A stretch of 64,000 bases of DNA, from the NCBI GenBank assembly GCA_947461125.1, contig CANHHX010000001.1:1-64000 (forward strand). The letters run 5' to 3'. Below the pieces are notes generated by a model, which saw nothing but the letters and a program-made list of their open reading frames with translations, was not told where the DNA came from and ran no database searches. The stretch comes from Bacteroidota bacterium. Lineage in GTDB: Bacteria; Bacteroidota; Bacteroidia; Chitinophagales; Chitinophagaceae. Position numbers and translations under genes: made by a program. The stretch's first letter is position 1. Every line of letters begins with the position of its first letter. This document shows, piece by piece, positions 21,540 through 61,064 of this stretch.

Positions 21540-21542
21540 GAT

Positions 21543-22697: not shown

Positions 22698-23319
22698 TTT
22701 TTAATTTTTTTATGATTTTTCCAGGAATTCCAACAACTAAAGAATAGTCAGGTACATCTTTTGTAATAACTGCTCCAGCTCCTATAACACACCATTTACC
22801 AATATTAATATTTGGAATAATGGTTGCTCCAGCGCCTATATGTGTACCCTCCCCTACTTTGACATTACCACAAAGTGTAGCTGAAGGAGAAATATGAACA
22901 AAATCACCTATAAAACAATCATGATCGATTGACGCATTTGTATTAATTATGCAATGTTTTCCTACAATTGAATCCCTTTGAACTATAGCATTATGAAAAA
23001 CAACTGAACCATTTTTAAATTTTGCATATTTATCAATAATAGAAGAAGGATGAATAAGAATTGTGAATGGATGTGATATTTTCTCTGAAATCTTCTTTCG
23101 TATATTATTATCACCAATCGATATTATTATTGGAATATTGGGTTTATAATTTTTGTCATAACCAGTAAGTACTGTATATTGATTTAAATAAGTAACTTTC
23201 TCATTATCATCAAAGATGATATCTACAAACCTGCCTATATCTTCAATAATACTAGATATGACTTTCGCATGTCCAGATGCACCATATAATATTACTTTGT
23301 TACTATGCATTACTGACAT
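22690..23319 (-). CDS. NeuD/PglD-family sugar O/N-acyltransferase
   Basis: YGASGHAKVI N-terminus and left-handed beta-helix hexapeptides; NTNASIDHDCFIGDFVHISP. Confidence 0.9.
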   Translation of the reverse strand: MSVMHSNKVILYGASGHAKVISSIIEDIGRFVDIIFDDNEKVTYLNQYTVLTGYDKNYKPNIPIIISIGDNNIRKKISEKISHPFTILIHPSSIIDKYAKFKNGSVVFHNAIVQRDSIVGKHCIINTNASIDHDCFIGDFVHISPSATLCGNVKVGEGTHIGAGATIIPNINIGKWCVIGAGAVITKDVPDYSLVVGIPGKIIKKLKNE

Positions 23320-40435: not shown

Positions 40436-41020
40436 CTAGTTTGTGTTTGTTTTAATGAGTATTCCGTCATTTAGTTCGTATTCAGATCCATCACCTTTAC
40501 ATTTTGCTTTTCCATTCCCGGTTAATGGCAATTCCAGTTTTTCGCCATAAGCACTCATCCAGCCGATTTGTTTTGCTGGTACACCGGCCATTAATGCGAA
40601 AGCCTTTACATTTTTATTTACTACAGCACCTGCTGCAATGAACGCATATTCCTCAATCACTACCCCGCAGACTATGGTGGAATTAGCTCCAAAAGTAACA
40701 CCTCTTTTAATTACTGTATTCCGATATTCACTTTTACGGGATATGTGACTCCTTGGGTTATATACGTTTGTAAAAACCATGCTCGGCCCGCAGAAAACAT
40801 CATCATCCAAATGTATATTATCATATATCGAAACATTATTCTGTATTTTACAATTGTTGCCGATAAACACTTTATTTGCAATGAAAACGTTTTGACCAAT
40901 ACTGCAATCACTCCCTATTTTGGCTTCAGCAGAAATATGCGTCCAATGCCAGATTTTTGTATTGTCACCGATAATAGCGCCTTCATCAATAATTGCTGTG
41001 ATATGTGCTGAATATCTCAT
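40436..41020 (-). CDS. Hexapeptide N-acetyltransferase (WbpD/WlbB-like)
   Basis: [78 protein letters not shown] at 41020 preferred. Confidence 0.9.
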
Positions 41021-41037
41021 ATTAAGTTTTTTGGAAA

Positions 41038-41982
41038 TCAGATTTTTTTGCAAAAAGGATGGAAATCATTTTCCAGTGCAGAGATTTTTGCATTACGGAT
41101 ATGATGTACCATTTCAATAGAATTTTTAGCTTCACTTATATCGAAGCCTTTACCATCCAATATGTGCTTATAGCTTTCTGTATGTAGGTCAGTAAATCCC
41201 TCTGAAAACTCAATTTCTTCACCGGCAATTTTTATTGACCTGTAAGTACGCTGTCCTTTTTCTTTTTGTTCTGAAGGTAAATGCTCTGAGTTAATAGAAA
41301 GAAACCAACGTACTCTTGCATTTTCTAGTTGTAAAAATCCTGATGCGCAATCGGGGTTATTAACATGTACCAATGAAGAAACCTGTTTACCAAATATCCA
41401 TGATATCATATCAAAAAAATGAACCCCTATATTTGTTGCAATTCCACCAGATTTAGCAACATCTCCCTTCCAGCTCTGGTAATACCAACTTCCTCTGGAT
41501 GTAATGTAGGTAATATCAACATCAGCCATTTCAGATTGTGTCTTTTCATATTTTTTATGCAATGCAATAATTGCAGGATGTAACCTTAATTGTAAAATAG
41601 TAAATATCTTTTTATCTCCTTCTTTTTCTACTTCTGCAAGGGCATCAACATTCCAGGGATTCAAAACAATTGGCTTTTCACATATTGCATGCGCATTATT
41701 GCGTAAAGCAAACCTGATATGTGCATCGTGCAGATAGTTGGGTGAGCAAATGCTCATATAGTCAATACCTTTTTGTTTTCTTTTTAATTTATCAATATGC
41801 CTATCGAATCGTTCAAATTCGGTAAAAAAATATGCATCTGGGAAAAAACTATCTAAAGTACCAACGCTGTCGTTTGGATCAAATGCCGCTTTTAATGCAT
41901 TATTTGTTTCTTTAATTGCCCGCATATGGCGATTCGCAATATATCCAGCTGCTCCTATAAGTGCAAAATTTAATTCAGACAT
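41038..41982 (-). CDS. Gfo/Idh/MocA oxidoreductase (WbpB/WlbA-like)
   Basis: [76 protein letters not shown]. Confidence 0.9.
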
Positions 41983-42035: not shown

Positions 42036-43202
42036 TTATTTTCCAGATTTTTTGAGAAATCTATATAGATTAACTAACATCTTGTATAGTTTTCTTTCCT
42101 CCCCATCTTTAAAAAACCAGTCCCACAAACCTTTCTCACTACCATACAATTCATGTGGCTTTTCAGGTCTACTTAAATAATCGGAGAATTGTTCTTTTGA
42201 CCAACCCATTTTTTTAAGGAAATACTCTGTATCATCTTTTAATAACTGTTCGGATAAAAATGCAGGTATTTTTAAAAGGTTGAGTGCCTCCTCACGGGTC
42301 ATCTGACCAGATGCTACCAATGTTCCAAGATGCAATAATCTTTTATCAACACCAAATTTTGTTGGCAATATATACCCTTGGTAAAACCGGGTAAAGATAG
42401 ATTCGTAGTGTTTAAAAGGATACCTGTGATAACCATACCCTTCTTCAAGTGCGTCTAGTACCTCGTTTTTATTATACTCAAAAAAATCAAGGAAAGAAAT
42501 CCAGTGTATTTTTTTGACAAACTCAAAACGTACAAAATCAATAGTACTGAAAGCTGGAAAAGTATTTAGTTTTGGACCTCCCATTTTTTGGCTTATCATT
42601 TTGATATTTTTCTTATCAAACTTAAACCAATTCCATCTCTTAGGTAATGCCATTCCTTCAGTAGCCTGATTAGTTCCTGCCAATATATATTTGATGCCAT
42701 ACTTGGCGGCTAATTTATAATTCACGCCCAGCATGGCATTGTCATATAATAACTCAACATCAATTACATCTGCATCAAAGAAAGCCTGCATCAATCCTTT
42801 GTATTCTGGCCAATCAATTACATGTGTATACAAATCCACTTTCAATATCCTGACGAGATTCGCGATATTATTCTGAGCAAGTTCGGAATTCCATCCATTA
42901 TCCATATGAACAGCCAGAGGGCGAAGACCACACTTAACAGCTTGCACAAGTGCCCAGGAACTATCCACACCACCTGATAAGCCGATAATACAATCATATC
43001 GCTTCCCTTTACCGGTTATTTTTATTGTATTTATGAATTCGTTCAGCTCTTTTTCCTTTTTATCAGCATTTTTTTGCTGCATTGGTTGGTAACGTACTAA
43101 AAAATCAGAACAATAGTTACATATCCCTTCTTTATTAAAAGTGATATCGATAGCACTCGTGTCCATAACACAGCGCCTACATATTTGGTATTCTTTTCCC
43201 AT
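42036..43202 (-). CDS. N-acetyl sugar amidotransferase (WbpG-like), module B
   Basis: CRRCVMDTSAIDITFNKEGICNYC Cys motif; GLSGGVDSSWAL PP-loop. Confidence 0.88.
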   Translation of the reverse strand: MGKEYQICRRCVMDTSAIDITFNKEGICNYCSDFLVRYQPMQQKNADKKEKELNEFINTIKITGKGKRYDCIIGLSGGVDSSWALVQAVKCGLRPLAVHMDNGWNSELAQNNIANLVRILKVDLYTHVIDWPEYKGLMQAFFDADVIDVELLYDNAMLGVNYKLAAKYGIKYILAGTNQATEGMALPKRWNWFKFDKKNIKMISQKMGGPKLNTFPAFSTIDFVRFEFVKKIHWISFLDFFEYNKNEVLDALEEGYGYHRYPFKHYESIFTRFYQGYILPTKFGVDKRLLHLGTLVASGQMTREEALNLLKIPAFLSEQLLKDDTEYFLKKMGWSKEQFSDYLSRPEKPHELYGSEKGLWDWFFKDGEERKLYKMLVNLYRFLKKSGK

Positions 43203-43203
43203 A

Positions 43204-43965
43204 TTATGAATTAAGTAGGATTTCCAATTCTTTGTATTGAGGATAAGTAATCAAAACAGCCCGATGGGGACCGTGAAAAACAAAAAAAGCACCAACTGCA
43301 ACAGCACTTGCACCTGCGTTTACAGCAAGTTTGATGTCATTAAGTTTTCCTACACCTCCTAATGCGATAAGAGGCACAGAAATGGCTCCACTTATTTGTT
43401 GAATCAACTCAATGTCCATACCTTCCATTACACCGTCATGATCGACGCTATTTAATACTATTTCTCCTGCGCCAGAATCAATTGCAATTTTAATAAAATC
43501 TAGTATGTTGGTTGACAATATTTTTTCGCGGGTAGCGGAATATAATTGCCTTTTTCCCAACCAGTTCTTTTTGATATCGATTGACACCAGCACGCTCTGG
43601 CTCCCAAATCTAGAAGAAATCTGCGAAATCAAAGAGGGATTTTCAAGAGCCGCTGTTTGAAGACATATTTTTTCAACTCCGATAGAAAATAGTCTGTGAG
43701 CATGCTCTACACTAGTAATACCACCACCATATGAAAGAGGCATAAAACATTCACCGGCAAACTGCTCAATCAAGTGATAATTCGGCTCTTGCTTAGCATT
43801 GGTTGCAGTTATGTCTAATACCATCAATTCGTCTACCTCCTTATCATTAAAGATTCGTATAGCATTAATAGGATCACCAACATACTTGGGATTCTTAAAT
43901 TTATAAGTTTTTACTAACCCTCCGTTCTTAAGAAGTAGACATGGAATGATACGGTGTCTAAGCAT
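43204..43965 (-). CDS. HisF-like cyclase subunit for amidotransferase, module B
   Basis: RIIPCLLLKNGGLVKTYKFKNPKYVGDPINAIRIFNDKEVDELMVLDI, PLSYGGGITS, SVDHDGVMEGMD. Confidence 0.88.
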   Translation of the reverse strand: MLRHRIIPCLLLKNGGLVKTYKFKNPKYVGDPINAIRIFNDKEVDELMVLDITATNAKQEPNYHLIEQFAGECFMPLSYGGGITSVEHAHRLFSIGVEKICLQTAALENPSLISQISSRFGSQSVLVSIDIKKNWLGKRQLYSATREKILSTNILDFIKIAIDSGAGEIVLNSVDHDGVMEGMDIELIQQISGAISVPLIALGGVGKLNDIKLAVNAGASAVAVGAFFVFHGPHRAVLITYPQYKELEILLNS

Positions 43966-44019
43966 AATAATTGCAAAATTTTTGAATACCTAATACCTTT
44001 ATACTCCTTGTTTCAGTCA

Positions 44020-44628
44020 TTATAGATCAGCAAATTTTTTTAATAATTTCATGCCAAAGCTGTGGCTTTTTTCGGGATGAAACTGGGTACCAAAAATATT
44101 ATCTTTTTCAATAGCAGTGACAAACATGTATCCATATTTTGCTTTTGCAGTAACTAACTCTTCTGCACATTTCACATAATAAGAATGCACCATATAAAAC
44201 CTTGGCTTTTCAATATTTTCGAAAAGCGTAGCCTTATTTTGTGTAAATATATCAGTCCACCCCATGTGAGGTATTTTATAAGAAGAGGGCATTTGTGTAG
44301 TGTCAAATTTTACTACTTCGCCCGGTAACCAGGCTAGACCTTTCTCTAGCCCTTCTTCACTTTTTTCAAATAACATTTGATGGCCAACGCATATTCCCAA
44401 AGTGGGTGTTTTCTCATTTATCACTTTTTTGTGAATCACAGTTTTTAACCCACTTGCATTAAACTGTTGCATACAATAATCAAAATGGCCTACACCCGGT
44501 AACAATATTTTTGATGCATTGGCAATTACTTCCACATCATTTGTAATACAGCTTTCTGCTCCAATTTTTTTGAACATATTATGGATAGAAAGAAGGTTGC
44601 CAACATTATAATTGATTATTGCTATCAT
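44020..44628 (-). CDS. HisH-like glutamine amidotransferase subunit, module B
   Basis: IINYNVGNLLSI, LLPGVGHFDYCM, LGICVGHQMLF, GTQFHPEKS. Confidence 0.9.
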   Translation of the reverse strand: MIAIINYNVGNLLSIHNMFKKIGAESCITNDVEVIANASKILLPGVGHFDYCMQQFNASGLKTVIHKKVINEKTPTLGICVGHQMLFEKSEEGLEKGLAWLPGEVVKFDTTQMPSSYKIPHMGWTDIFTQNKATLFENIEKPRFYMVHSYYVKCAEELVTAKAKYGYMFVTAIEKDNIFGTQFHPEKSHSFGMKLLKKFADL

Positions 44629-44660
44629 AAACCTATCTAATACTTATATAATCGTTCATA

Positions 44661-45524
44661 CTAATTCTTTCTCATTACAAATGTTGTTCGAGGTTGATGT
44701 CCATAACTAACGCTTAGTCTTTTTTCAATTAATTCCAATCCATGTTCTTTTCCACATATAGCAACTTGTTCAGGACTAAATCTAACTGGATAAATATTTA
44801 AGGACTCTAAACCTATTGGATGATCAAAAGGGTCCCTATAATCTGCAACTGCATCTATAAGTTCAACAAAAAATAAACATCCTGGATTCATCAAACTTTG
44901 ATATTCTCCAAAAAAATCAATTAATAATTTACTCCGAACATCATAATCCCTTGGATTTTCAATTTGCTTGTTACCATAATTACCCATCCATGCAGAAAAA
45001 ACCCAATGCAAGGCAGTTATAACATCATACTTGCCATTTTGGAAAGGTTTAAAGCCATCGTCTAACAAGAAACTAGTTTCAGTATAATCAAATTTATCTT
45101 TTAATATACTTGCAATTTTAATACACTCTGGTAATAAATCTCTACCCTCTACAAATTTGAATCCCTGGTCCGCAAGATGAAAAACCATTATTCCTGTACC
45201 ACATCCAGTAACTAATATTTTTTTATTTTTATCAACTTTTTCATTAATGAATTTTAATGTAAAATTTGTTAAGGGGTCTTTATCATCACGTTCAAATGCT
45301 GTATAAAACCAAGATAATTGGTTTCCATTAACTAAACCTAACCCCTGATCCACTACAATTTTTTTAGCTTCAATATCAGAGTATCTACTTTTAATAAATT
45401 GAGGATTTTGATTTACTCCTTTTCTCAATAACTTTTTTATACTTTTTGTAAAGTTTCTCTTTAATTCATATGTAAAAGCTAAACGTTTTGCAGTAGAGAT
45501 ACTTCCGTGATTGAACTCATTCAT
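44661..45524 (-). CDS. Class I SAM-dependent methyltransferase
   Basis: KILVTGCGTGIMVFHLADQGF motif I; located inside the glycan cluster. Confidence 0.75.
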   Translation of the reverse strand: MNEFNHGSISTAKRLAFTYELKRNFTKSIKKLLRKGVNQNPQFIKSRYSDIEAKKIVVDQGLGLVNGNQLSWFYTAFERDDKDPLTNFTLKFINEKVDKNKKILVTGCGTGIMVFHLADQGFKFVEGRDLLPECIKIASILKDKFDYTETSFLLDDGFKPFQNGKYDVITALHWVFSAWMGNYGNKQIENPRDYDVRSKLLIDFFGEYQSLMNPGCLFFVELIDAVADYRDPFDHPIGLESLNIYPVRFSPEQVAICGKEHGLELIEKRLSVSYGHQPRTTFVMRKN

Positions 45525-46980
45525 AATTTACTATTTTTGGTTTATAATTATTTAATAAAAATTTAAAATGATATCGATTATGATACAAATACATAGCTGC
45601 ACTAAAAAAAACAAAAACATTTACAACTAACTTAAATAAAATATTAGCATCTTTTAAAAGAAATGCTGTACAACCTAGTAGCACAATTAGAAGGATCCAT
45701 AAATGAGGATAATACTTTTGTTTATCCACGTTTTTTAGTGCACTAGTATACATGCCAGAAAAATAAACAACTAATAGCCCTATAAATGTAGCTATTGCAG
45801 AACCCATCACACCTAGATAAGGTATTAATAGCAGATTTAAAATAACATTGATAATTCCACCAGCAAAAGATATGCGCCAAAATTGCTTGGTCTTATCCTC
45901 AAAACCAAGCCTCATCATACAGGCCCAATACATAGGCATACATGAATTCCCCATCAATATTACAATCGCGAAAGGATATGCTGCTGCCAGCTCGGCATTG
46001 TTTGTAATCAAATTAAATATTTCTTTTACCCATAAGCATGCCATAAAAGTAAAAGATATAAATACTACCTGCAAAAAAAAAGTGAAATATCGTGCATTCT
46101 TGTACGATACTTCCAGCCTTTGGGCGAATAAGGTATAATACATTGGACCCACCGCCTGGCCTATCGCATTGCCAGCCGCATCAGCATATTTACCCAAAGT
46201 ATAGGCAAAGTTATATTGGCCAATTTGCTGAGGATTGATTTTATAAAGATCAAGTAAAATACGGTCTGATGCATCAAGCAGATATCCAGAGTACTTATGT
46301 GGTATCATGGGCAATGATACTCTTAGAAGATTTCGCATCTGGTTTTTCTTTATTTTAAAAACCGGATATAGTTTCAACTTAAAAAATACTGGATAAAGAA
46401 AAAATAAAAAATTAACTAATGCTATGATAAAATTTGTAATAAAAAAACTCCAGTAATGAAACTTCAAGTTTACAATAAGATAATAATTAGCAAATACGCC
46501 TATGGCACCGGTAATAACAGCTACAATAAACAAATATTGTGGTTTTTGTTTGCTTTGATAATATCTTACACCCAACGTATTTACAGAATCGAAAAGTAAA
46601 ATAGGTAAAATTACAAGTAAAATAAAGTAGTAAAAATGTGTATCAATATATTTTTGTACAAAAAAATAAAGAATCATAAAGACCATTAATGAATATGGAA
46701 AGCTCCACACAATTAATATCCCAAATATTTTTTGCCAAAACAATTTCCATTTTACAGGATTCCCCTGTGCTTTAAAAAAATAATTCGTCAAGTTTAATTG
46801 AAGACCAAGGTCTTTAAAGGCACTTAACGCGGAAGTATAAGCTATAGTAATACCATATACTGTATAATCAAAAGCAGTTAAATATTTTGTAGTTATAGGC
46901 AATAAAAATAAGGTAATTATGCTGGGCAATTGAGGGCCAATAGCGTATAGTAAACTATGAGAAAATAGACGTTTTAACAA
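45517..46980 (-). CDS. Polysaccharide flippase (Wzx/MATE-like)
   Basis: Multi-pass membrane protein; MIPHKYSGYLLDASDRILLDLYKINPQQIGQYNFAYTLG typical of Wzx. Confidence 0.88.
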   Translation of the reverse strand: MLKRLFSHSLLYAIGPQLPSIITLFLLPITTKYLTAFDYTVYGITIAYTSALSAFKDLGLQLNLTNYFFKAQGNPVKWKLFWQKIFGILIVWSFPYSLMVFMILYFFVQKYIDTHFYYFILLVILPILLFDSVNTLGVRYYQSKQKPQYLFIVAVITGAIGVFANYYLIVNLKFHYWSFFITNFIIALVNFLFFLYPVFFKLKLYPVFKIKKNQMRNLLRVSLPMIPHKYSGYLLDASDRILLDLYKINPQQIGQYNFAYTLGKYADAAGNAIGQAVGPMYYTLFAQRLEVSYKNARYFTFFLQVVFISFTFMACLWVKEIFNLITNNAELAAAYPFAIVILMGNSCMPMYWACMMRLGFEDKTKQFWRISFAGGIINVILNLLLIPYLGVMGSAIATFIGLLVVYFSGMYTSALKNVDKQKYYPHLWILLIVLLGCTAFLLKDANILFKLVVNVFVFFSAAMYLYHNRYHFKFLLNNYKPKIVNYE

Positions 46981-48176
46981 TTATTATACATTTTGTAAGA
47001 TGAGCAACTGCTTAAAAGAAACTTTTCCCATTCCATGTTATTTTTTTCTAAATCAATTAAAGGCACTTTTACTTTTTGTTGTGATATCCAATCTATAATA
47101 TTTAATCCTTTTTTATATACAAGTGCATAGCCCTGATTTATTTCCTTTTTAAAATAAGAAGGCCCTCCATAAGGTGGTGTGTTTTCACCATTAGGCCCAT
47201 ATTGAATTACCAAATGATTAAGTATTAGAGATGTTATACCAAATTGTGCAGCTTCAATAACAACTGAACTTTCAATAGTGATATGCGTTTTTGTCTTTGT
47301 AAGAATCAGTGGCAGAGGCAGGGTACTTAACTCCTTCCAGAAAACTTTCTCTTTTTCTTCTAGAGTAAAATTTTTATCTAAAAATTGTTCAAATTCATCC
47401 CGATTTTCCTTTTTCATATAAACAACCGGATGTAGTCTTATTACCCAAGTATAAATATTTAAAGTTTGTCTTATTACCGCTATCATATAATCAGGTATGA
47501 TGTAACTGTGATGTGAACCCCATGTTAGTGTTAATAAAATAATTGGCTTTTTAAAATTATTTAGAGTCAGAGCAGCCTCATCGCAATTGAACCATTCTGA
47601 AAATGTGTTTTCAAAAAAACCGTTATTCCATTGATTACCTATAACATGAGTCATACATAAATACTCGAAATTTTTAGCACTTACGTCATCCCAGCTTAAA
47701 AATCCGTATGGAAGATACTCTGTTGAGAAATTTCTTAACGTATTTTTTCCAAAATACATATGATCGGATGCTATTACACCATGTTGCAAGTAATACAATT
47801 TTATTTTTTTTGAATTACACACTTTGTTTAAAGCTATATCCCAGTCAATAACGATTAGCGCTTTAGGCCTAAGAAGCATCAAGATTAGTTTCCACGATGT
47901 TGTACGCTTTAATTTAATTTTTTCAAAAAAAATCATCAGTGGTGCCACAGAAAAATCATAATCACAATTATGATCATCAATAATTGTGATTGCTGATATT
48001 TTGGATTTTATATTTTCTGCTTCCAATTTTTTTTTCAGAACAAATGCAAAGGGAGATATTTTACGTTCGTTTAAGAATGTATTTATATCTGCTCCGGTTA
48101 TAAATATAATATGTTGTTGTCTGTTTTTTATACATCCAAAAACACTTTGTATCCACGAAATGAAAAAAGAGATCAA
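46974..48176 (-). CDS. Putative surface-carbohydrate glycosyltransferase-like protein
   Basis: LYYLQHGVIASDHMYFGKNT resembles the QHG motif of capsule glycerophosphotransferase/Kdo-transferase-like proteins; cluster context. Confidence 0.5.
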   Translation of the reverse strand: MISFFISWIQSVFGCIKNRQQHIIFITGADINTFLNERKISPFAFVLKKKLEAENIKSKISAITIIDDHNCDYDFSVAPLMIFFEKIKLKRTTSWKLILMLLRPKALIVIDWDIALNKVCNSKKIKLYYLQHGVIASDHMYFGKNTLRNFSTEYLPYGFLSWDDVSAKNFEYLCMTHVIGNQWNNGFFENTFSEWFNCDEAALTLNNFKKPIILLTLTWGSHHSYIIPDYMIAVIRQTLNIYTWVIRLHPVVYMKKENRDEFEQFLDKNFTLEEKEKVFWKELSTLPLPLILTKTKTHITIESSVVIEAAQFGITSLILNHLVIQYGPNGENTPPYGGPSYFKKEINQGYALVYKKGLNIIDWISQQKVKVPLIDLEKNNMEWEKFLLSSCSSYKMYNNC

Positions 48177-48188
48177 ACTATTGTTATT

Positions 48189-49229
48189 CTAAATTTTATC
48201 CCAGCTTAAAGGAGTTCCTTTAGCCAGACTTACACGAGCAGTATTGCCTATTAATTGCTCAAAATATCGAGGGTGCAAGCCATCACCAGGTCTTATTATC
48301 CTAATATTGTCATAATTGAACTTTTCTCCTTGTTGTATCTCCTTCACAACATAAATACTTCTTTTAAACATGAGGCTCTTGATTTCGGTTGGCTGAATAC
48401 CATATTGAATATTACCCAATGATTGCCAGGCTCTTTCTGTTTCTATTACTAAACTTTTGAGTTCATCAGGTTCCAAAGAAAAAGCACTATCAACCCCGCC
48501 TTCGGATCTGTCTAAGCAAAAATGCTTCTCGATCACAGTTGCTCCCAATACCGTAGCCGCTACAGGCACACCTATACCCATCGTATGATCACTTAATCCT
48601 ACTTCACAATTAAACAATGATTTTAAATGAGGTATTGTTCTTAAGTTAGAATTTAAAGGGTTTGCAGGGTAATTACTGGTACATTTTAAAAGGACCAAAT
48701 CGCTGCAGTTATTATTCCTGAGTACGTCAACAGATTCAGCAAGGCCCTCGAGGCTGCTAACACCTGTTGACATAATTACAGGTTTACCCGTTTTGGCTAC
48801 TTTTTTTAGAAGGGGCAAATAATTGTTTTCAAAAGATGCAATTTTATACGCCGGAGAATTCAGTTTTTCTAAAAAATCGACAGCACTATTATCAAAAGGA
48901 GTTGAAAATATGATGATATTATTATCAGCAGCACATTTATATAATGCTTCATGCCATTCCCACGGAGTATGAGCTTCCTGATATAATTCATACAAGTTCC
49001 TATTTTTCCACAAAGAGTTTTCATCTTTAATATCAAAAAGTCCTCCTCTATGATCTATTGTAATAGTATCAGCAGTATATGTTTGTAGTTTAACCGCATG
49101 TGCGCCACACTCAGCTGCAGTTTCAATTATTTTAAAAGCCCTATCTATAGATTGATTATGGTTACCGCTCATTTCAGCGATGATAAAAGGGGTGTTATTT
49201 GAACTTATAGTATAATTGCTTATTTGCAT
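48189..49229 (-). CDS. pseI: Pseudaminic acid synthase (PseI)
   Basis: FIIAEMSGNHNQSIDRAF, STPFD, CTSNYPAN, GLSDHTMG, ATVIEKHFCLDRSEGGVDSAFSLEP. Confidence 0.92.
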   Translation of the reverse strand: MQISNYTISSNNTPFIIAEMSGNHNQSIDRAFKIIETAAECGAHAVKLQTYTADTITIDHRGGLFDIKDENSLWKNRNLYELYQEAHTPWEWHEALYKCAADNNIIIFSTPFDNSAVDFLEKLNSPAYKIASFENNYLPLLKKVAKTGKPVIMSTGVSSLEGLAESVDVLRNNNCSDLVLLKCTSNYPANPLNSNLRTIPHLKSLFNCEVGLSDHTMGIGVPVAATVLGATVIEKHFCLDRSEGGVDSAFSLEPDELKSLVIETERAWQSLGNIQYGIQPTEIKSLMFKRSIYVVKEIQQGEKFNYDNIRIIRPGDGLHPRYFEQLIGNTARVSLAKGTPLSWDKI

Positions 49230-49702
49230 TGATTTATGTTTTTAATATATAATACAGAGGGTTCTTTTTGATATATCAATTCTTTTTTAAGAATAAAATT
49301 TGCTTTTATAAAAGAATCTATAGAGGCTATATTGGAACTCTTTATATAAGCATAAAGGAAATAGTTGGGATTTTCAGTTAAAAAAATATTGGATGCTGTA
49401 TCAAGTATTTGGGGTGCATATGAATTACCTCGGTGCATAATATCAATTGAAACTCCAATTATAGCTGTATTATCATTAGACTTTGTGATACGCACCTGTC
49501 CAATATTTTGCTGATCTTCATTATGAAATATATAGAAACAAAAATTGGGATTATTAATACGTTCGTTAAACCATTCTACATGTGCATTGTAATCAATTGT
49601 AGCAGTATCAAAAGATTGTAGTCTTACCAAAGGGTCATTTGCCCATTGATAATACAAGTCACAATCCTTTATGTTAGCTTTACGTATGGTTAGAATGCTC
49701 AT
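49220..49702 (-). CDS. GNAT N-acetyltransferase (PseH-like candidate)
   Basis: TIRKANIKDCDLYYQWANDPLVRLQSFDT, NIGQVRITKS; adjacent to pseI. Confidence 0.8.
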   Translation of the reverse strand: MSILTIRKANIKDCDLYYQWANDPLVRLQSFDTATIDYNAHVEWFNERINNPNFCFYIFHNEDQQNIGQVRITKSNDNTAIIGVSIDIMHRGNSYAPQILDTASNIFLTENPNYFLYAYIKSSNIASIDSFIKANFILKKELIYQKEPSVLYIKNINQCK

Positions 49703-50249
49703 TAATTTTTGAATGAATAACTACATCAATAAACTTGTCTTCAATAAAGCAATGATCTTTCAAAACTGCTTCTTTATAAAAGCCGCAAGATTCTAAAACA
49801 GAGTACAAATTAGGCCTTAAGTCAAATGCATAAGTAAAAATTTTATGGATTTTAATATCTTCAAAAGCTACCAGCTGTATCATACTTAGAAAACTTTGCC
49901 AGCAAGAAGAAAAGTATTCTTCTTCCATCTCTGGTTTGATTATAAAGGAAATCTCTGCATGCTTATCTACCCAATTAATATGCACCAATCCACCATAACC
50001 TATACATACATTATTATATAAAAAAGAAAATAAGATTTGGCTGGGTTGCTGTGTATCAAATAATTTACTTATTATCTCTGCAAAGTAATTATCTTGGATA
50101 ATTGGCGTAAGTAGTTTTTGCTGGCGTAAATGAAAAATCTGCGCATTACGCATATGCATAATAATATACTTATCCTGGTCTCTTATGGGCACAATAGAGT
50201 AATTCTCATTAATTCTTACTTGTTCTTTTAAAGAAGCATAATTACGCAT
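49680..50249 (-). CDS. GNAT N-acetyltransferase
   Basis: VPIRDQDKYIIMHMRNAQIFHLRQQ, IGYGGLVHINWVDKHAEISFII, LESCGFYKEAVLKDHCFI. Confidence 0.8.
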   Translation of the reverse strand: MRNYASLKEQVRINENYSIVPIRDQDKYIIMHMRNAQIFHLRQQKLLTPIIQDNYFAEIISKLFDTQQPSQILFSFLYNNVCIGYGGLVHINWVDKHAEISFIIKPEMEEEYFSSCWQSFLSMIQLVAFEDIKIHKIFTYAFDLRPNLYSVLESCGFYKEAVLKDHCFIEDKFIDVVIHSKINEHSNHT

Positions 50250-50995
50250 TATAATCTGACCGGTTTATTTATCTTTTGTAACGAGTTTTTAATATCAAGA
50301 GGTGTGAATTGGGTAAAATGGAAAATACTTGACGAACCTACCGCTTCGCAATTGGTATTCTGAAAAAGTTCAATATAATGGTCTGGCTTACCACCGCCTC
50401 CAACACAAATCATTGGAACTTTTGTTATTTTTTCTGCTTCCTTTATCAATTCTATATCAAACCCACTCATCATTCCGTCGTTGTTAACTGCATTTAATAT
50501 TATTTCTCCGGCTCCAGCTTCTTGCATTTCTGAAATAAAATCATGCATTGCTATATTCTTACCAGCAATATTCAATATTTCAAACCGATCATTTTTCTTT
50601 TGAACATCTACTGAGATTGTTATACACTGTGCCCCAAAAAATTCTGAAGCAGTTTTGATGAAATTTTTATCTTTAATTGAAGCTGACTTAATAATAACCT
50701 TATCAGCACCAATTTTTAATAGATCATTAATGTCCTCAACTGAAGTTATACCGCCACCAATTGCTACCGGCATAAAACACTCTTTAATTACATCTTGTAC
50801 TATTTTAAGATTAATCTTTCTATTCTGTTGTGTAGCAAAAATATCTATAAAAGCAAGTTCATCTACTGCCCTGCTGTTATAAACCCTTGCTGCCTGTACA
50901 GGATTACCAACCATCCTCGGATTAATAAATTGTTTGGTTTTAACTAATGCAAATCCATTAAAAGTGAGTATAGGTATAATCCTAACTTTAAGCAT
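50249..50995 (-). CDS. HisF-like cyclase subunit, module A
   Basis: RIIPILTFNGFALVKTKQFINPRMVGNPVQAARVYNSRAVDELAFIDIFA, PVAIGGGITSVEDI. Confidence 0.88.
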   Translation of the reverse strand: MLKVRIIPILTFNGFALVKTKQFINPRMVGNPVQAARVYNSRAVDELAFIDIFATQQNRKINLKIVQDVIKECFMPVAIGGGITSVEDINDLLKIGADKVIIKSASIKDKNFIKTASEFFGAQCITISVDVQKKNDRFEILNIAGKNIAMHDFISEMQEAGAGEIILNAVNNDGMMSGFDIELIKEAEKITKVPMICVGGGGKPDHYIELFQNTNCEAVGSSSIFHFTQFTPLDIKNSLQKINKPVRL

Positions 50996-51596
50996 AATAT
51001 TTATAAATAGATGATAAAAGTGTTAGGCCTGCATTCTGACTTTTTTCAGGATGAAATTGTGTGGCAAAAATATTCTTGTTTTGAATAGCAGCAACATAAT
51101 CTTTACCATAATTTACAGTAGCTGCAATATTTTCTTTATCTGAAACATCAAAATGAAAACTATGTATAAAGTAGAAATTTTTTTGATCTACTGGTGATAA
51201 AAAACCCTGTTTTGTTACAGATATATCATTCCATCCTAAATGTGGTATTCTCTTTTGTGGTTCTATAATTTTTTTTACTGTTCCTTCTATCCAACCTAAG
51301 CCATTGCAGTGAATAAATTCTGTCCCACTTGAAGCGAGCAATTGCATACCTAAACAAAAGCCCATAAAAGGTTTCTCTTTAACTAATACTTGTTCATTTA
51401 GAACCGGTATTAAATTATAAGCAATTAGATTATCCATACCCTGTTTAAAAGCACCAACACCAGGTAAAATAATAAAATCAGCATCAATTATTTCTTTATG
51501 GTTGGATGTAATTATATTTTTTATTTTTAAAAAATCTAAAGCTTTTTGTACTGAAGCCACATTGCCCATTCCATAATCGATAATAGCTGTTTTCAC
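50988..51596 (-). CDS. HisH-like glutamine amidotransferase subunit, module A
   Basis: IDYGMGNVASVQKAL, LPGVGAFKQGM, GFCLGMQLLAS, ATQFHPEKSQ. Confidence 0.9.
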   Translation of the reverse strand: MKTAIIDYGMGNVASVQKALDFLKIKNIITSNHKEIIDADFIILPGVGAFKQGMDNLIAYNLIPVLNEQVLVKEKPFMGFCLGMQLLASSGTEFIHCNGLGWIEGTVKKIIEPQKRIPHLGWNDISVTKQGFLSPVDQKNFYFIHSFHFDVSDKENIAATVNYGKDYVAAIQNKNIFATQFHPEKSQNAGLTLLSSIYKYYA

Positions 51597-51615
51597 AATT
51601 GCATTAAATTAAGAG

Positions 51616-52770
51616 TTACTGAATTTCAAAGCTTTTAATCAAATTACCTTCATCATCTCTTTTAAAACTGCCATCTTTGTTTTTTTTGAAAATTATAGGA
51701 TTTGTGTAAGAATCAATTACATTATCAATCTCTATTTTCGACATACCTGAGTATTTAATAAATTCATTTATGGCATAGTGAGGGTACTTACCATCAAATT
51801 GCTTTACTAAAGCTAAACCTTCAGCGCGAGTAAGTCTGTTGTTCCTGATATCAATACATGCATGATCAGTTGCTCTGCCGAAGCCGTATTTTACATATTT
51901 CAGATAATCATGCAGACCTACTAATTTTTCATCTAGATTCTCATAATTAGTATAAGTACCTTCAATATTTCCATCTTCCTTCACACTAAACCCAAGTTCT
52001 TTTACTATCTCTAGCTGTTTACGGGCATCCCAAAAAAAATAATGCCCTAAAAATATTCCTGTTACACCTACTCTTTCAATATCTTCATCTTCTGGATAAA
52101 AGTAAGGTGTCAGTTCTTTTTCAGTAAGGCCCTGTACTCCAACCATATCCTGTATTCTGTTTCCCAGCAAGCCCCCAAATTCCTCTAACCATTTCCGGTT
52201 AAGTATTCTGTTTTTTACGCTATCAAGATGTGGGCCACCGTATTCCTGTTGGGGATTTTCTCCCCATATTATTAGTGGAATATTGAATTTAACAGCGAAC
52301 ATTACAGGAATAGTGAAAATGCCTATATGGTTAGGCCACATTTCATCACCTACTCTGATAAAGCTTTCTACAACCATTTTTTTATAAGCATCATGATTTT
52401 TTTTGAAATGTATAAGATCAATACCCATTTTAGAAATATTATCTAAATTACGCTGACCTAGTTCAGTAACCATTGTAGTTTCAAAGCAAACACATAAAGG
52501 ATTAAGACCGCATACATTCTTCATAAAATAAGCTTGGTACGTGCTATCTTTCCCTCCACTTACAGGTATTAAACAATCATATCCAATTTCTCCAGAAGGC
52601 TTTTTATAAAAATCTACAATCTCAAAAAAATCTTTCCTTTTTTGGACCCAATCGATACCTATATTTTTCTGTTCAGCGGCTACACAGGCAGAACAAATAC
52701 CCTCTTCATTGAAAGACAAGTCGGGTTTGGTTTCTGGAAACAAACATTTATTACAATATCTAATATTCAT
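51616..52770 (-). CDS. N-acetyl sugar amidotransferase, module A
   Basis: MNIRYCNKCLFPETKPDLSFNEEGICSAC Cys motif; IPVSGGKDSTYQAYF PP-loop; ATG at 52770 preferred. Confidence 0.88.
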   Translation of the reverse strand: MNIRYCNKCLFPETKPDLSFNEEGICSACVAAEQKNIGIDWVQKRKDFFEIVDFYKKPSGEIGYDCLIPVSGGKDSTYQAYFMKNVCGLNPLCVCFETTMVTELGQRNLDNISKMGIDLIHFKKNHDAYKKMVVESFIRVGDEMWPNHIGIFTIPVMFAVKFNIPLIIWGENPQQEYGGPHLDSVKNRILNRKWLEEFGGLLGNRIQDMVGVQGLTEKELTPYFYPEDEDIERVGVTGIFLGHYFFWDARKQLEIVKELGFSVKEDGNIEGTYTNYENLDEKLVGLHDYLKYVKYGFGRATDHACIDIRNNRLTRAEGLALVKQFDGKYPHYAINEFIKYSGMSKIEIDNVIDSYTNPIIFKKNKDGSFKRDDEGNLIKSFEIQ

Positions 52771-52772
52771 TT

Positions 52773-53393
52773 TTATTTTTTTTCGATTAAGAACCATGTG
52801 ATATCATCTTGTGGAAAAGCAGGATCTCTCCTATATGCAAAACCATAATCAATAAGAGCACAATTATTAAACCTATCTAGAAATTCTCCAGCGAAATCTC
52901 TTTTATACAATCTATCCATATGTCCTCTATATGGAATGGTTACAGGTATAGGATTGTAGTATTCCCCGATTAAGATATATTTATTTGAACTTTCATATAG
53001 TTTATCATAAACCACATTTAACATATCAGGATTTATATGAATTAATACCCCTTTTATTAAAGACAGTTCAACTGATTCAGAAACATCAGCTTCAAAAATA
53101 GAACCCATGTAAACGTTCTCATTACCAATCTCAATTTTTAACTGTTGTGCAGCTTTTTCATTTATCTCAATCCCTTTCAAGTTAATTTGGGGATATAAAG
53201 CTTTTAATGCTTTCATATTCATCCCAATATTTGCCCCAAACTCTCTACAAGAAGAAATTTTTCCTGCTTTTTTTAAAGCATTAGAAAAATAATAAAGGTT
53301 TGAAGCCATTAGCTGATCACTTTTATTTCTTGAGATATAATCATCCCCAAATTCTTGTGACCAAAATTGTTCTTGATCTGTTTTAAAGTCCAT
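52773..53393 (-). CDS. Pseudaminic acid biosynthesis-associated methylase family
   Basis: DQEQFWSQEFGDDYISRN ... CREFGANIGMNMKALKALYP ... KGVLIHINPDMLNVVYDKLYESSNKYILIGEYYNP. Confidence 0.85.
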   Translation of the reverse strand: MDFKTDQEQFWSQEFGDDYISRNKSDQLMASNLYYFSNALKKAGKISSCREFGANIGMNMKALKALYPQINLKGIEINEKAAQQLKIEIGNENVYMGSIFEADVSESVELSLIKGVLIHINPDMLNVVYDKLYESSNKYILIGEYYNPIPVTIPYRGHMDRLYKRDFAGEFLDRFNNCALIDYGFAYRRDPAFPQDDITWFLIEKK

Positions 53394-54370: not shown

Positions 54371-54376
54371 TTCAAA

Positions 54377-55816
54377 TTAAAATTGGAAATAAATAAACTG
54401 TTGCTGTTTCCCAGAAACTAATATAATAGTTAAAATAAATATATAATAAATTAACCACCGTATTCCCACATACTTGATTTTATTTGTTTTCTGAAAGGGA
54501 TGTACTCCAAATCTACTTATCCACTCAATAATTATAAAGCATATTACTAAAACTGTAGTAATTAATGGAAAATCTTGTGGAATAGTTAAGATCGAACTAT
54601 TAATTATATGCTTAACAAAATCCCAAGCAATACTAAGATTTGGTGCTCTAAAAAATATCCACGCAAAAGTTACTAATGAAAACGTAAATAAAATTTGAAA
54701 AAAATCATTAAATGAAGGTAAAATCTTATCCTTAGAAACGATTTGCAAATTTTTCCTATTTAAACCAAAGATTAAAAGAGGCAAAAAATAAACCGCATTT
54801 AAAAACCCCCAAAATAAAAAGGTCCAGTTTGCGCCATGCCAAAAACCACTTACAATAAATATGATGAATGTATTAATAATTGCCCTATACTTATTTACCT
54901 TACTGCCTCCTAAGGGTATATATAAATAATCTTTAAACCAAGATGAAAGAGATATATGCCATCTTCGCCAAAATTCTGCAATATCTCTTGAAAAATAAGG
55001 AAACGAAAAGTTTTTTAGTAGCTCTATACCGAATAATCTTGCACTACCTAGCGCAATATCAGAATAACCTGAAAAATCACAATAAATTTGAAATGAAAAA
55101 AAAACTGCTCCTAAAATTAGTGATGATGCAGAATAATTCTCATATCCATTAAAAATTTGGTTGGCATAAACAGCACAATTATCAGCAATTACAACCTTTT
55201 TGAATAAGCCCCACAATATTTGTTGTAATCCATCAATAGTTTTAGTATAATTAAAATTTCTATTTTGCTTTAACTGGGGTAACAAATGCGTGGCTCTTTC
55301 AATTGGACCTGCTACTAATAATGGGAAAAAGCTTACAAAAAGGGAATAAACAATAAAGTCTTTTTCAGGTCTTATTTTATTATTATAAGTATCGATTACA
55401 TATGATAGACCATGAAAAGTATAAAAGGAAATTCCAACAGGTAATATGATATTTAACAACCATAAACCATTAAAATTGAAACCAAGGTTTTGAACTCCTT
55501 CGGCAAAGGATGTGATAAAAAAATTATAATATTTAAAGACGCCTAAAAATCCAAGGTTTATAACTATACTCAAAAAGAGCCAATTTTTTTTCTGTGTAAT
55601 TGTTTTCGAATCAAATATTTTAATTGCTGAATAATAATCAAGTAAGGTCGAAAAGATTAATAATAACAAGAATCTAATATCCCAACAACTATAAAAAAAA
55701 TAGCTCGCTATAAGTAATAATAAATTTTTACTTGAGCTACAATTTTTAAAGACTACCCAGTATAAGATATAAACTATAGGTAAAAAAATAAAAAAGCTAA
55801 AGGAATTAAATAGCAT
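54377..55816 (-). CDS. MBOAT family O-acyltransferase (AlgI-like)
   Basis: FNSFSFFIFLPIVYILYW, PVGISFYTFHGLSYVIDTY, FCDFSGYSDIALGSARLFG-type segment, FWRRWHISLSSWFKDYLYIPLGG, SGFWHGANWTFLFWG. Confidence 0.95.
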   Translation of the reverse strand: MLFNSFSFFIFLPIVYILYWVVFKNCSSSKNLLLLIASYFFYSCWDIRFLLLLIFSTLLDYYSAIKIFDSKTITQKKNWLFLSIVINLGFLGVFKYYNFFITSFAEGVQNLGFNFNGLWLLNIILPVGISFYTFHGLSYVIDTYNNKIRPEKDFIVYSLFVSFFPLLVAGPIERATHLLPQLKQNRNFNYTKTIDGLQQILWGLFKKVVIADNCAVYANQIFNGYENYSASSLILGAVFFSFQIYCDFSGYSDIALGSARLFGIELLKNFSFPYFSRDIAEFWRRWHISLSSWFKDYLYIPLGGSKVNKYRAIINTFIIFIVSGFWHGANWTFLFWGFLNAVYFLPLLIFGLNRKNLQIVSKDKILPSFNDFFQILFTFSLVTFAWIFFRAPNLSIAWDFVKHIINSSILTIPQDFPLITTVLVICFIIIEWISRFGVHPFQKTNKIKYVGIRWLIYYIFILTIILVSGKQQQFIYFQF

Positions 55817-57585
55817 TATTTAATTTTTGTATTGGTATTTAACATATCAATTAAATCTTTGTCGGTTTTATATTTTAATTGAATATGACTGTTAATTAAA
55901 GCGATATTAGGATTATTATCAAGAAATTCAAATACTGTATGTATATTTTGTGGTTTCTTTAAATCATCTATATGCTTTTGAATTTCTAAAAATAAATCTA
56001 AATCTTCCTTATAGTCTAAAGTCAATCGATAATCCCTTATTAAGGTCGATGGTAATTGGACGAAATTTAATTTAAAATGCTCTGGATTGTTCTGAAAATA
56101 CCAAGTCATATACTCTGAATAATCCGCATTTGGAAAATGATTTTTTATTTTCCTTAAAGAACTTGCATTGATAATTTCAACAGAGGTTCCAACTGCCGAA
56201 TGCTTAGCTACTGTATAGTCAGCACCATATTCAAAATGTTTAGCCATTAAAAAATCAACGATTTCGCTTGAAACATAAGGCATATCGGCTGTCACCCTTA
56301 CAACTATATCTACTCCGAATTTATCTATAATCCCTAAATAACGAGAAATAACATCCTCGGGATGACCTCTATGAAAAATGACAGCAGGAGAATAGGTATA
56401 ATTTTCCAAAATTTTATCTGCCTCCAAATCAGATGTTGCTAAAATGGTAAAATGTGTGTCCTTAAAATTCAAGCAACTTTGCAAGCACTTTTCAACAGAT
56501 GTTAAATTCCCAATCTTCTCTAAAGACTTTTTTTCTAACCTGGTTGATTTCATTCTACAAGCTACTATAGTTGCAATTACCGCCTTTTTAAAATATTCTT
56601 TTTTTAGGGTTTTCTGAACAGGAATATTACTATTCAAAATATACTTTGTTTTTTGTAAATCTAAAATATCTTTGACACTTAATCCTGCTTGGCCAGATCG
56701 TTTAAAATCTAAATCTGAGTTAATATTAATAAGACTGCCTGAATTCAATGAATATTTACTAATCGGTATTTGAAGGCTGTTTTTAAGATATATACGTTCC
56801 CTCTCATTAATAAAAGGCTGAATTTTCAATTCAATATACTTTTTTAAATTATTTAAAAGTATATTATATTTATTAAAATCAATACTTGAAAAATTATCAT
56901 ACTTAGTTTCTAATTTACTATGCATGATATGCTTTTCAATTGCATGTGCACCATGCATTGCTGCACAAATTGGCAACCAAATTGTATCTTCAGATTCTCC
57001 ACTTGCATGGTCTGCAAAAACAATTTTATTGTTAAAATAATTTTTTAAATGGCTTATTTTACCAAAAGCACTATCCTCCAATTCAGTAGGATAGGCTTGA
57101 AAACCAACTTCAATCCATAACTCCTTTGGTTGAAGTCTTAAATTAAAAACAGATAGCCTTTCTTGGATTTCATCTATTTCTAAAGCACTAATGTTTATGA
57201 TTAGTATTTTATCGTGAATTCCGATTTTTTCTAGCCCTCTTATTATTGCTTCATTATATAATACAGACGCTTGAAGTTTTATTCCAAATATGCTAGTTTT
57301 ATTTGATTCCAAAACTTCAACACCATATTCATCAAAAAGATCTAACCAAATTTCTTTAGTTTCAAAAGCTTTTCCAATAATAGTATTCCATTCGGATAAA
57401 TCAAAATAGAGTTTCTCATACACATTATACCACTCATAGTCTTTAGTAGCAATCTTGTCAGGATGTAATGGTTGAAATTTCATTCCAACTCCTTTGATGA
57501 AACTGAACTCTTCTATTAGCGATAATATATAATCTAAACTGCCTCCATGACAATTTGCAACTTCTAAAATTTGATATGGCAGCAT
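55816..57585 (-). CDS. NeuB-family synthase fused to SAF-like and SpsF/CMP-sialate-cytidylyltransferase-like domains
   Basis: NeuB-like GFQAYPT, FADHASG, GAHAIEKHI; SAF-like SGQAGLSVKDI; C-terminal ATIVACRMKSTRLEKKSLEKIG ... VVRVTADMPYVSSEIVDFL. Confidence 0.82.
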   Translation of the reverse strand: MLPYQILEVANCHGGSLDYILSLIEEFSFIKGVGMKFQPLHPDKIATKDYEWYNVYEKLYFDLSEWNTIIGKAFETKEIWLDLFDEYGVEVLESNKTSIFGIKLQASVLYNEAIIRGLEKIGIHDKILIINISALEIDEIQERLSVFNLRLQPKELWIEVGFQAYPTELEDSAFGKISHLKNYFNNKIVFADHASGESEDTIWLPICAAMHGAHAIEKHIMHSKLETKYDNFSSIDFNKYNILLNNLKKYIELKIQPFINERERIYLKNSLQIPISKYSLNSGSLININSDLDFKRSGQAGLSVKDILDLQKTKYILNSNIPVQKTLKKEYFKKAVIATIVACRMKSTRLEKKSLEKIGNLTSVEKCLQSCLNFKDTHFTILATSDLEADKILENYTYSPAVIFHRGHPEDVISRYLGIIDKFGVDIVVRVTADMPYVSSEIVDFLMAKHFEYGADYTVAKHSAVGTSVEIINASSLRKIKNHFPNADYSEYMTWYFQNNPEHFKLNFVQLPSTLIRDYRLTLDYKEDLDLFLEIQKHIDDLKKPQNIHTVFEFLDNNPNIALINSHIQLKYKTDKDLIDMLNTNTKIK

Positions 57586-57609: not shown

Positions 57610-58767
57610 TTACTGATTTTTATTTGTTAAAAAAAGATTAATGCAATTAATTACAAATATTTGTTCTTCAGAAGTCAATGTTGGATACATTGGCAAACTC
57701 AAGCATTTGCTATAATATTTTTCTGCAGAAGGAAAATCTCCTTTTTTATGCCCCAATTTTTGATAGTATGGCATTGTGTGTAATGGAACATAATGTACTT
57801 GGGTAAAAATGTTATTGTCTTTTAGATAATTGTATAGCTCCAATCTATTCTCCACTTGAATTATGTACAAATGAAATGCATGCCCATCATCAAACTTAGG
57901 TAATATCACATCTTTATTATCTACAAATGCATCATTATATCTTTTCGCAATTTCTTTTCTTTTTTTCAAGCCTGCTTCGGCTCGAGTAAGTTGGCTAATT
58001 CCTAATGCACAGAGCATATCTGGCATACGATAGTTATAGCCTAATTCATGCATTTCCATATACCATCCACCATGATTTTCTACCAATTGATTTGGATTCT
58101 TTGTAATACCATGTGTCCTTAGTAATAATAATCTTTCATATAAATCTTTGTCATTAGTAGTAATCATTCCACCTTCGCCACAAGCGATATGCTTAACAGG
58201 ATGAAAAGAGAAAATTGCTAAGTCAGCAAAAGATCCATTTCCACAGAATTGCTTATTCCCTCTACTATCAATAAAATATCCCCCAGGAGAATGACAAGAA
58301 TCTTCTATAATCCAAAGGTTATATTTATTTGCAACTGACCTTATAAGCTCTAGATTAACAGCATTACCTGCAAAGTCAACGGGTATTATTCCATCAAAAA
58401 AACCTTCAGGTTTAGAAATAATTAGGGCTTCTAGTTTTTTGATATCAATCAAAAATGTTTCTGGATTAATATCAGCAAAAAAAACATTGCCGCCGCAATA
58501 TCTAATGCAATTTCCAGAAGCTGCAAAAGTTATTGGTGTTGTGATCACATTACTTTTATTAGAAACATTTAGAGCCAATGTACAAAGATGTAAAGCAGCA
58601 GTTCCATTAGCAACAGCGACTGCATATTTGGAGCCGATATAATTGGCAAATTTTTGTTCAAACTCTAACACTTTTGGACCCTGAGTCAAAAAATCACTTT
58701 GAAGTGTAGATACAACTGCGTCGATATCAGCTTGAGTAATATTTTGTTTTCCGTATGGAATGTTCAT
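57610..58767 (-). CDS. pseC: UDP-4-amino-4,6-dideoxy-N-acetyl-beta-L-altrosamine transaminase
   Basis: IPYGKQNITQADIDAVVSTLQSDFLTQGPKVLEFEQKFANYIG, FHPVKHIACGEGGMITTND, NYRMPDMLCALGISQL. Confidence 0.93.
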   Translation of the reverse strand: MNIPYGKQNITQADIDAVVSTLQSDFLTQGPKVLEFEQKFANYIGSKYAVAVANGTAALHLCTLALNVSNKSNVITTPITFAASGNCIRYCGGNVFFADINPETFLIDIKKLEALIISKPEGFFDGIIPVDFAGNAVNLELIRSVANKYNLWIIEDSCHSPGGYFIDSRGNKQFCGNGSFADLAIFSFHPVKHIACGEGGMITTNDKDLYERLLLLRTHGITKNPNQLVENHGGWYMEMHELGYNYRMPDMLCALGISQLTRAEAGLKKRKEIAKRYNDAFVDNKDVILPKFDDGHAFHLYIIQVENRLELYNYLKDNNIFTQVHYVPLHTMPYYQKLGHKKGDFPSAEKYYSKCLSLPMYPTLTSEEQIFVINCINLFLTNKNQ

Positions 58768-58777
58768 ATAAAAAATA

Positions 58778-59779
58778 TTAACTTATTACAAATTCTTGAA
58801 TCAAATTTTTCAATTCATCAACAGTTAAAAAGTGAACGTTCTCTCCACTATTGTAATTAAACCCAACTGGTACTTTTTTAGCTTCGAATTTAATTATGAA
58901 ATCATTCAAATTGAAAACAGGGACTTGAGGTAAAATGGTATAGTACTTTCCTAAATCATATGTTGAAAATGAATCACTAACAGAAATCATTTCTTCATGT
59001 ATTTTTTCTCCTGGTCTAATGCCAACTACTTCTTGTTTACAATTTTCATCAATAGCTTTTGCTATATCTGTAATTCGATATGAAGGAATTTTAGGTACAA
59101 ACAATTCACCCCCCCAAGCATGATCCATTGCATATACAACCATCTTCACCCCATCTAATAAAGAGATATTGAATCTGGTCATATTAACATCTGTGATTGG
59201 CAAAACGCCTGTTTCCTTTTTTTTCAAAAAGAATGGTACTACACTGCCATTACTACCCATTACGTTTCCATACCTAACAACTGAAAAGCGTAAATCTCTA
59301 TTGCCTTTTATATTATTTGCAGCAATAAACAACTTATCACTTGTAAGTTTTGTTGCTCCATATAAATTTATGGGGGCACATGCCTTATCGGTACTTAGGG
59401 CTACAACTCTAGAAACATTTGTTTCTAAGCATGCTCTAATTACATTTTCAGCTCCATTAATATTGGTTTTTACGCACTCGTCAGGATTGTATTCTGCAAT
59501 TGGCACATGTTTCATCGCTGCTGCATGAATTACATAATCTATCCCTTCCATTGCTCTCTTTAATCTATCATAATCTCTAACATCACCAATAAAAAAGCGA
59601 ATATTTGGGAATACATTAGCTGGATAGTCTTGAGACATATGAAACTGCTTTTGTTCATCCCTAGAGAAAATTACTAACCTTTTTATATTAGGATGCTTTG
59701 TTAAAAAATACTTAACTAATGCTTTTCCTAATGAACCAGTACCGCCTGTGATTAAAATTTGTTTATCCTGATAAGTCAT
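58778..59779 (-). CDS. pseB: UDP-N-acetylglucosamine 4,6-dehydratase (inverting)
   Basis: ILITGGTGSLGKALVKYFL, VIFSRDEQKQFHMSQ, HAAAMKHVPIAEYNPDECVKTNINGAENVI, ALSTDKACAPINLYGATKL. Confidence 0.95.
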   Translation of the reverse strand: MTYQDKQILITGGTGSLGKALVKYFLTKHPNIKRLVIFSRDEQKQFHMSQDYPANVFPNIRFFIGDVRDYDRLKRAMEGIDYVIHAAAMKHVPIAEYNPDECVKTNINGAENVIRACLETNVSRVVALSTDKACAPINLYGATKLTSDKLFIAANNIKGNRDLRFSVVRYGNVMGSNGSVVPFFLKKKETGVLPITDVNMTRFNISLLDGVKMVVYAMDHAWGGELFVPKIPSYRITDIAKAIDENCKQEVVGIRPGEKIHEEMISVSDSFSTYDLGKYYTILPQVPVFNLNDFIIKFEAKKVPVGFNYNSGENVHFLTVDELKNLIQEFVIS

Positions 59780-61054: not shown

Positions 61055-61064
61055 TAATCTTAAA

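Follow-up and report, generated by a model that had tools for sequence, protein, structure and literature searches.

Two putative acetamidino-forming modules in one surface polysaccharide cluster of a Chitinophagaceae bacterium

Why would one polysaccharide cluster hold two complete gene sets for the same unusual sugar modification? The question is raised by a 64,000-nucleotide stretch of a Bacteroidota bacterium of the family Chitinophagaceae (assembly GCA_947461125.1, contig CANHHX010000001.1, positions 1 to 64,000; hereafter the window). There, an earlier note made from the letters alone had described two sets of genes for an N-acetyl sugar amidotransferase (NASAT), a HisH-like glutaminase and a HisF-like barrel, hereafter modules A and B. 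We propose, with a probability of roughly 0.8, that both are of known kinds, form acetamidino groups separately and serve one surface polysaccharide cluster, with A acting on a pseudaminic-type nonulosonate and B on a 2,3-diacetamido-uronic acid. This reading rests on which genes are present, which families and clades they belong to, the motifs they conserve and their genomic context. Predictions from sequence are the substrates, where each amidine sits, and the joining of both sugars in one polymer.

Both trios are intact, comprising six uninterrupted open reading frames on the minus strand, within one long, tight run of genes whose gaps are mostly below 60 bases or overlapping. Their gene orders are as first described. 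Module A runs from a PseA-type amidotransferase (51616..52797; TIGR03573, 367.5 bits) through HisH (50988..51596; TIGR01855, 222 bits) to HisF (50249..50995; TIGR03572, 253 bits, under the cut-off of 299.7; it clusters with the HisF partners of PseA-type enzymes). The likely start of this amidotransferase is an internal ATG at 52770, which matches homologues better than 52797. Module B runs from HisH (44020..44628; TIGR01855, 230 bits) through HisF (43204..43965) to a WbpG-class amidotransferase (42036..43202; TIGR03573, 275.2 bits). Both amidotransferases exceed the curated NASAT cut-off of 203.2 bits, and both HisH proteins pass TIGR01855. The model for AglZ/HisF2 acetamidino modification, NF038364, separates the barrels: with a cut-off of 310, module B HisF passes at 363.5 bits and module A HisF fails at 227.8. 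Beyond these two trios, the assembled genome (87% complete) yielded no further TIGR03573 gene.

Key motifs are conserved in both trios. Although they share only 26% identity, both amidotransferases carry the zinc-type cysteine pairs and the SGGxDS PP-loop that the earlier note had pointed out (CNKC, CSAC and SGGKDS in A; CRRC, CNYC and SGGVDS in B). Both HisH proteins keep the Cys and HisPE motifs (CLGMQ and HPE in A, CVGHQ and HPE in B). In imidazole glycerol phosphate synthase, HisH hydrolyzes glutamine and the HisF barrel conducts the ammonia. By the same logic, HisH would free ammonia from glutamine, the HisF-like barrel would channel it, and the PP-loop amidotransferase would spend ATP to put NH in place of the N-acetyl oxygen of the sugar, giving a charged amidine. 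The cyclase residue Asp11 of HisF is Thr in module A and Leu in module B, while Asp130, Arg5, Glu46 and Lys99 are kept in both, a pattern expected for an ammonia conduit that probably lacks cyclase activity. Neither barrel belongs to the histidine-pathway family TIGR00735 (217 and 192 bits against a cut-off of 294.55), and histidine does not require them, since a canonical HisF apart from these two is encoded on another contig (C19; 338 bits, above cut-off). The solved structure of a Legionella NASAT (8WEX) contains a tetracysteine zinc site as well as a PP-loop pocket, and its authors propose ATP-to-AMP amidotransfer (PMC10607449), which supports a use of zinc, PP-loop and ATP across the family; it is matched by the module A amidotransferase at 166 bits and by that of module B at 31 bits.

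Are the two modules copies of one another? Their divergence, together with the amidotransferase and HisF trees, rules out a recent tandem duplication. The HisH proteins share 36% identity and the HisF proteins 41%. In a 71-row tree of Bacteroidota amidotransferases, the window genes fall on opposite sides of a 100/100 split whose branch length is 1.89 changes per column. Elsewhere, the nearest amidotransferase relative of module A is at locus L099 (77% identity in a tree alignment), and L097, absent from the tree concerned, reaches 81% by tblastn; for module B the nearest is at L083 (62–63%). The HisF partners split alike, and because class-B HisF proteins form one clade (38 rows; SH-like approximate likelihood ratio test, SH-aLRT, 100), HisF travels with its own amidotransferase. 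HisH trees agree with this division at weak support. As the earlier note had expected, the modules do not cluster together as recent paralogues; they are old and separately inherited.

The same note had also invoked the permuted gene order against duplication, an argument that was given too much weight because each order is common within its own class. In the fetched loci, with genes in overlapping loci counted repeatedly, the prevailing class-A order is amidotransferase-HisH-HisF (104 genes); in class B, 31 genes follow that order and 21 the order HisH-HisF-amidotransferase. It is therefore divergence, not order, that speaks against duplication, and the seemingly permuted orders of the window are two ordinary arrangements joined, each inherited from its own source system.

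Two other explanations were weighed. Both modules could serve the same sugar class, for example by modifying a single residue at two places, or either could be redundant; other Bacteroidota (L045, L046, L062) do carry two nonulosonate-class amidotransferases that share a single HisH/HisF. We consider this improbable here, since a deep divide separates the classes of the two window amidotransferases, their neighbours differ, and each comes with a HisH and a HisF of its own. Alternatively, one module might be a decaying or non-functional remnant of O-antigen cluster exchange. Cluster content is indeed highly variable in the genus, with the TIGR03573 family above cut-off in 29 of 147 genomes, but six intact frames, retained motifs and the position of both trios in one tight same-strand run make a remnant very hard to credit.

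Placement of module A points to a pseudaminic-type substrate. Campylobacteria and Pseudomonas aeruginosa reference genes were taken from genomes with matching gene context, so that they are identified by context and not by protein name. In a tree of the nonulosonate class, the module A amidotransferase falls within a 20-row clade with Campylobacteria genes (support 98/99). At five of these Campylobacteria loci, amidotransferase-HisH-HisF stands divergent from PseI, an arrangement that we take to be that of C. jejuni Cj1317-Cj1314c. A second Campylobacteria type (L269-L272) adjoins a NeuB-family gene, in some cases with a PglD-like gene, and lies outside the module A clade; no HisH or HisF was found beside it in the short flanks examined. 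This type fits PtmG, the CMP-Leg5Am7Ac synthase. PtmG is also the proper amidotransferase reference for the legionaminic route, where the earlier note had misnamed LegG, a hydrolase/2-epimerase (PMC13317340). The same study assigns Pse5Ac7Am genes to Clostridium drakei (PMC13317340), whose locus falls inside our wider PseA-type group.

Genomic neighbourhoods agree with the tree. Within 8 kb, at least two of PseB, PseC and PseI accompany 62 of about 86 PseA-type genes (some of the fetched loci overlap) versus 5 of 66 class-B genes. Module A thus resembles the Campylobacter PseA system for Pse5Ac7Am formation in amidotransferase clade, gene order and PseI neighbour, and differs from it in three ways: it belongs to a polysaccharide cluster, a TIGR03587 methylase accompanies it, and no PseG was found. 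As far as sequence can test it, the proposed tie between module A and a nonulosonic acid holds: its amidotransferase groups with the PseA-type genes beside PseI, not with the PtmG-like ones.

Module B is placed with uronate-type systems. Its amidotransferase forms a five-row clade (SH-aLRT 100) with four others: one at L083, one in Atopomonas (L155) and two in Pseudomonas (L227, L242). By genome, these relatives belong to Atopomonas, Pseudomonas G459 and G474, and G117. All members are ordered HisH-HisF-amidotransferase, and all four relatives have WbpB, WbpD or WbpE homologues nearby (for L227, in the overlapping neighbour L226). In the window, a WbpB-like 3-dehydrogenase (41038..41982, minus strand; PF01408, about 333 bits to homologues beside WbpA/D/E in Atopomonas) and a WbpD-like hexapeptide N-acetyltransferase (40436..41053, minus strand; 259 bits to its Atopomonas homologue) lie directly downstream of module B. 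Upstream are a WbpA-like UDP-sugar 6-dehydrogenase (61065..62354, minus strand; TIGR03026, 386 bits, above cut-off) and an aminotransferase (59921..61084, minus strand) that is WbpE-like by context and homology, its counterparts in L132, L155 and L226 being paired with homologues of WbpA/B/D; its DegT-type scores all lie below cut-offs. A non-hydrolysing UDP-GlcNAc 2-epimerase (26472..27563, minus strand; TIGR00236, 321 bits, above cut-off), possibly of WbpI type, could serve the C2 step of the module B sugar. The suggested link between module B and a diacetamido-uronic acid, made by WbpA/E/B/D-type enzymes, is therefore borne out as far as its nearest clade and neighbours can tell.

The closest characterized counterpart is WbpG/HisH2/HisF2 of P. 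aeruginosa O5, which acts toward ManNAc3NAmA. Four Pseudomonas loci (L230, L231, L234, L236), and L232 in part, carry WbpA-B-D-E, HisH-HisF-amidotransferase and WbpI, in what is presumably the O5 order. Module B shares with these systems the trio order, a HisF that passes the AglZ/HisF2 model and the presence of WbpA/B/D/E; it differs in that its amidotransferase sits in a separate clade, outside the O5-like one, and in that WbpA/E lie far from WbpB/D in the window. Could module B instead act on L-FucNAc to make FucNAm, as a WbuX-type system would? Class-B genes often stand beside FnlA/FnlC-like genes, and a WbpI-like gene lies within 8 kb of 39 of 66 of them. However, the window has no FnlA gene beside module B, WbpB and WbpD follow immediately downstream, and the module B clade is linked to WbpB/D/E, so that we hold a fucosamine substrate to be unlikely and favour the diacetamido-uronic acid.

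Genes for part of the predicted pseudaminic route lie on the same strand. PseB, an inverting UDP-GlcNAc 4,6-dehydratase (58778..59779; TIGR03589, 500 bits), PseC aminotransferase (57610..58767; TIGR03588, 454 bits) and the pseudaminic acid synthase PseI (48189..49229; TIGR03586, 487 bits, cut-off 340) all score above cut-offs. Two GNAT proteins are weak matches: GNAT1 (49220..49702), PseH-like, gives 28.9 bits to TIGR03585 and aligns with the part fused to PseG in L033 and L106, and GNAT2 (49680..50249; PF13420) occupies the PseG position. A cytidylyltransferase domain is present in a 589-residue protein (55816..57585; PF03102 and PF02348), where it is fused to a NeuB-like domain, making this a candidate CMP-nonulosonate synthetase. 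The fusion exists besides the separate PseI and occurs also in L111; a similar one adjoins a PseA-type trio in a Yanofskybacteria metagenome-assembled genome (MAG; 432 bits).

Several observations weigh against the proposed pair of pathways. The uronate-route genes are split, with WbpA/WbpE about 18 kb upstream of WbpB/WbpD, and the WbpE-, WbpB- and WbpD-like genes passed no specific curated model. Moreover, the annotated Pse route has a gap, as no PseG was found in the assembled, 87% complete genome; it was likewise not found in G401 or in the single-contig genome G170. GNAT2 may bear on this gap. It precedes the PseH-like GNAT1 in the window and in five other loci, fused to it in three (L097, L099, L104), and at L033 and L106 that place is taken by a PseG domain, fused to the PseH-like part. 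Where PseI and a class-A amidotransferase occur at the same locus, a PseG match is present in 0 of 6 GNAT2-bearing loci versus 40 of 53 others not at a contig edge, a small comparison, uncorrected for relatedness, in which the GNAT2 loci are all Bacteroidota and include the window's own sequence (L093). We rejected GNAT2 as a disguised hydrolase: its AlphaFold model shows an ordinary GNAT fold, a search of the PDB placed H. pylori PseH with the closest matches, and it is thus not an evident hydrolase.

Adjoining module A is a pseudaminic acid-associated methylase (52773..53393, minus strand; TIGR03587, 286 bits, cut-off 112). Of 86 PseA-type amidotransferases, 34 have such a gene no more than 150 bases away; no class-B amidotransferase does. 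By analogy with PtmH and Legionella ORF8 it could be an amidine N-methylase; we did not adopt an obligate role of this kind because four Bacteroidota genomes (G072, G158, G261, G391) carry the methylase with no TIGR03573 match.

Do both sugars enter one glycan? The enzyme classes could be right and the sugars nevertheless go to two products, such as a polysaccharide and a protein glycan. Campylobacter flagellin is decorated with PseA products, which lends this some appeal. Flagellar Pse and Leg are documented (PMC13130089). Set against this, both modules lie with one Wzx (45517-46980) in a single same-strand run of genes, and two destinations seem to us rather unlikely next to a single cluster product.

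Several other genes of the run stood out. A 400-residue protein without family matches (46974-48176) recurs near nonulosonate synthase genes in L224, L226, L228 and L053, with homologues in Pseudomonas and Bacteroidota clusters at about 130 and 84 bits; our guess is a nonulosonate transferase. Beside a 309-residue protein without family matches stands an MBOAT O-acyltransferase (53441-55816 for both), possibly an O-acetylation pair. At the end of the run (20940-23319), a short sugar-phosphate transferase, a LegC-family aminotransferase and a NeuD/PglD-type acetyltransferase suggest a diamino-sugar primer. Two asparagine-synthase-like proteins (29687-31585 and 36161-38071) belong to a family often held to make uronamides, and the glycan may also bear amides. 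AsnB-type proteins have been proposed as amidine makers in Tannerella (PMC6120980), a role that we did not adopt here because two dedicated trios are present.

How common is the pairing? TIGR03573 exceeds its cut-off in 54 of 396 Bacteroidota genomes, and two of these besides the window (G187, G224) have both classes in one cluster; in a third (G205) the classes lie 22 kb apart and the class-A member is a long-branch outlier. Three genomes of the same genus combine a class-B trio with a class-A trio belonging to other subtypes, as do three of 250 Pseudomonas genomes (G459, G559, G562), which have WbpA/B/D/E as well. The window's own combination, PseA-type with class B, recurs in Atopomonas hussainii (amidotransferases about 8 kb apart) and in a Burkholderiaceae MAG (about 11 kb). 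These cases rule out uniqueness. The O-antigen-like cluster of A. hussainii JCM 19513 (L155/L210/L211) matches the window in its PseA-type trio, its trio of the module B clade, both gene orders and WbpA/B/D/E, and differs in possessing PseG and in a PseA-type gene of a separate subclade. In Vibrio vulnificus SUKU_G1, UDP-ManNAc3NAmA and Pse pathways were likewise inferred together in one strain, with a PseA gene listed; its authors infer Pse5Ac7Ac and analysed no glycan (PMC11676643). In the open-access literature searched, we met no solved glycan in which both sugars are amidino forms. The pairing is thus, by gene content, uncommon but recurring, and the window joins two modules of known kinds. 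Only tentatively, and with more doubt than belief, do we suggest a single repeating unit with two different amidino sugars, one pseudaminic-type and one diamino-uronic, a combination that would have arisen repeatedly in phyla not related to each other, in which the Pse branch runs without PseG and a second GNAT-fold protein takes its place in the gene order.

If correct, these assignments would offer a sequence-based rule to tell whether an amidotransferase trio serves a nonulosonate or a uronate/fucosamine. Among culturable species, A. hussainii JCM 19513 lends itself to testing whether a polysaccharide is doubly amidinated, as predicted. Amidines bring positive charge to acidic polysaccharides, and their presence should alter recognition by phages, antibodies and peptides.

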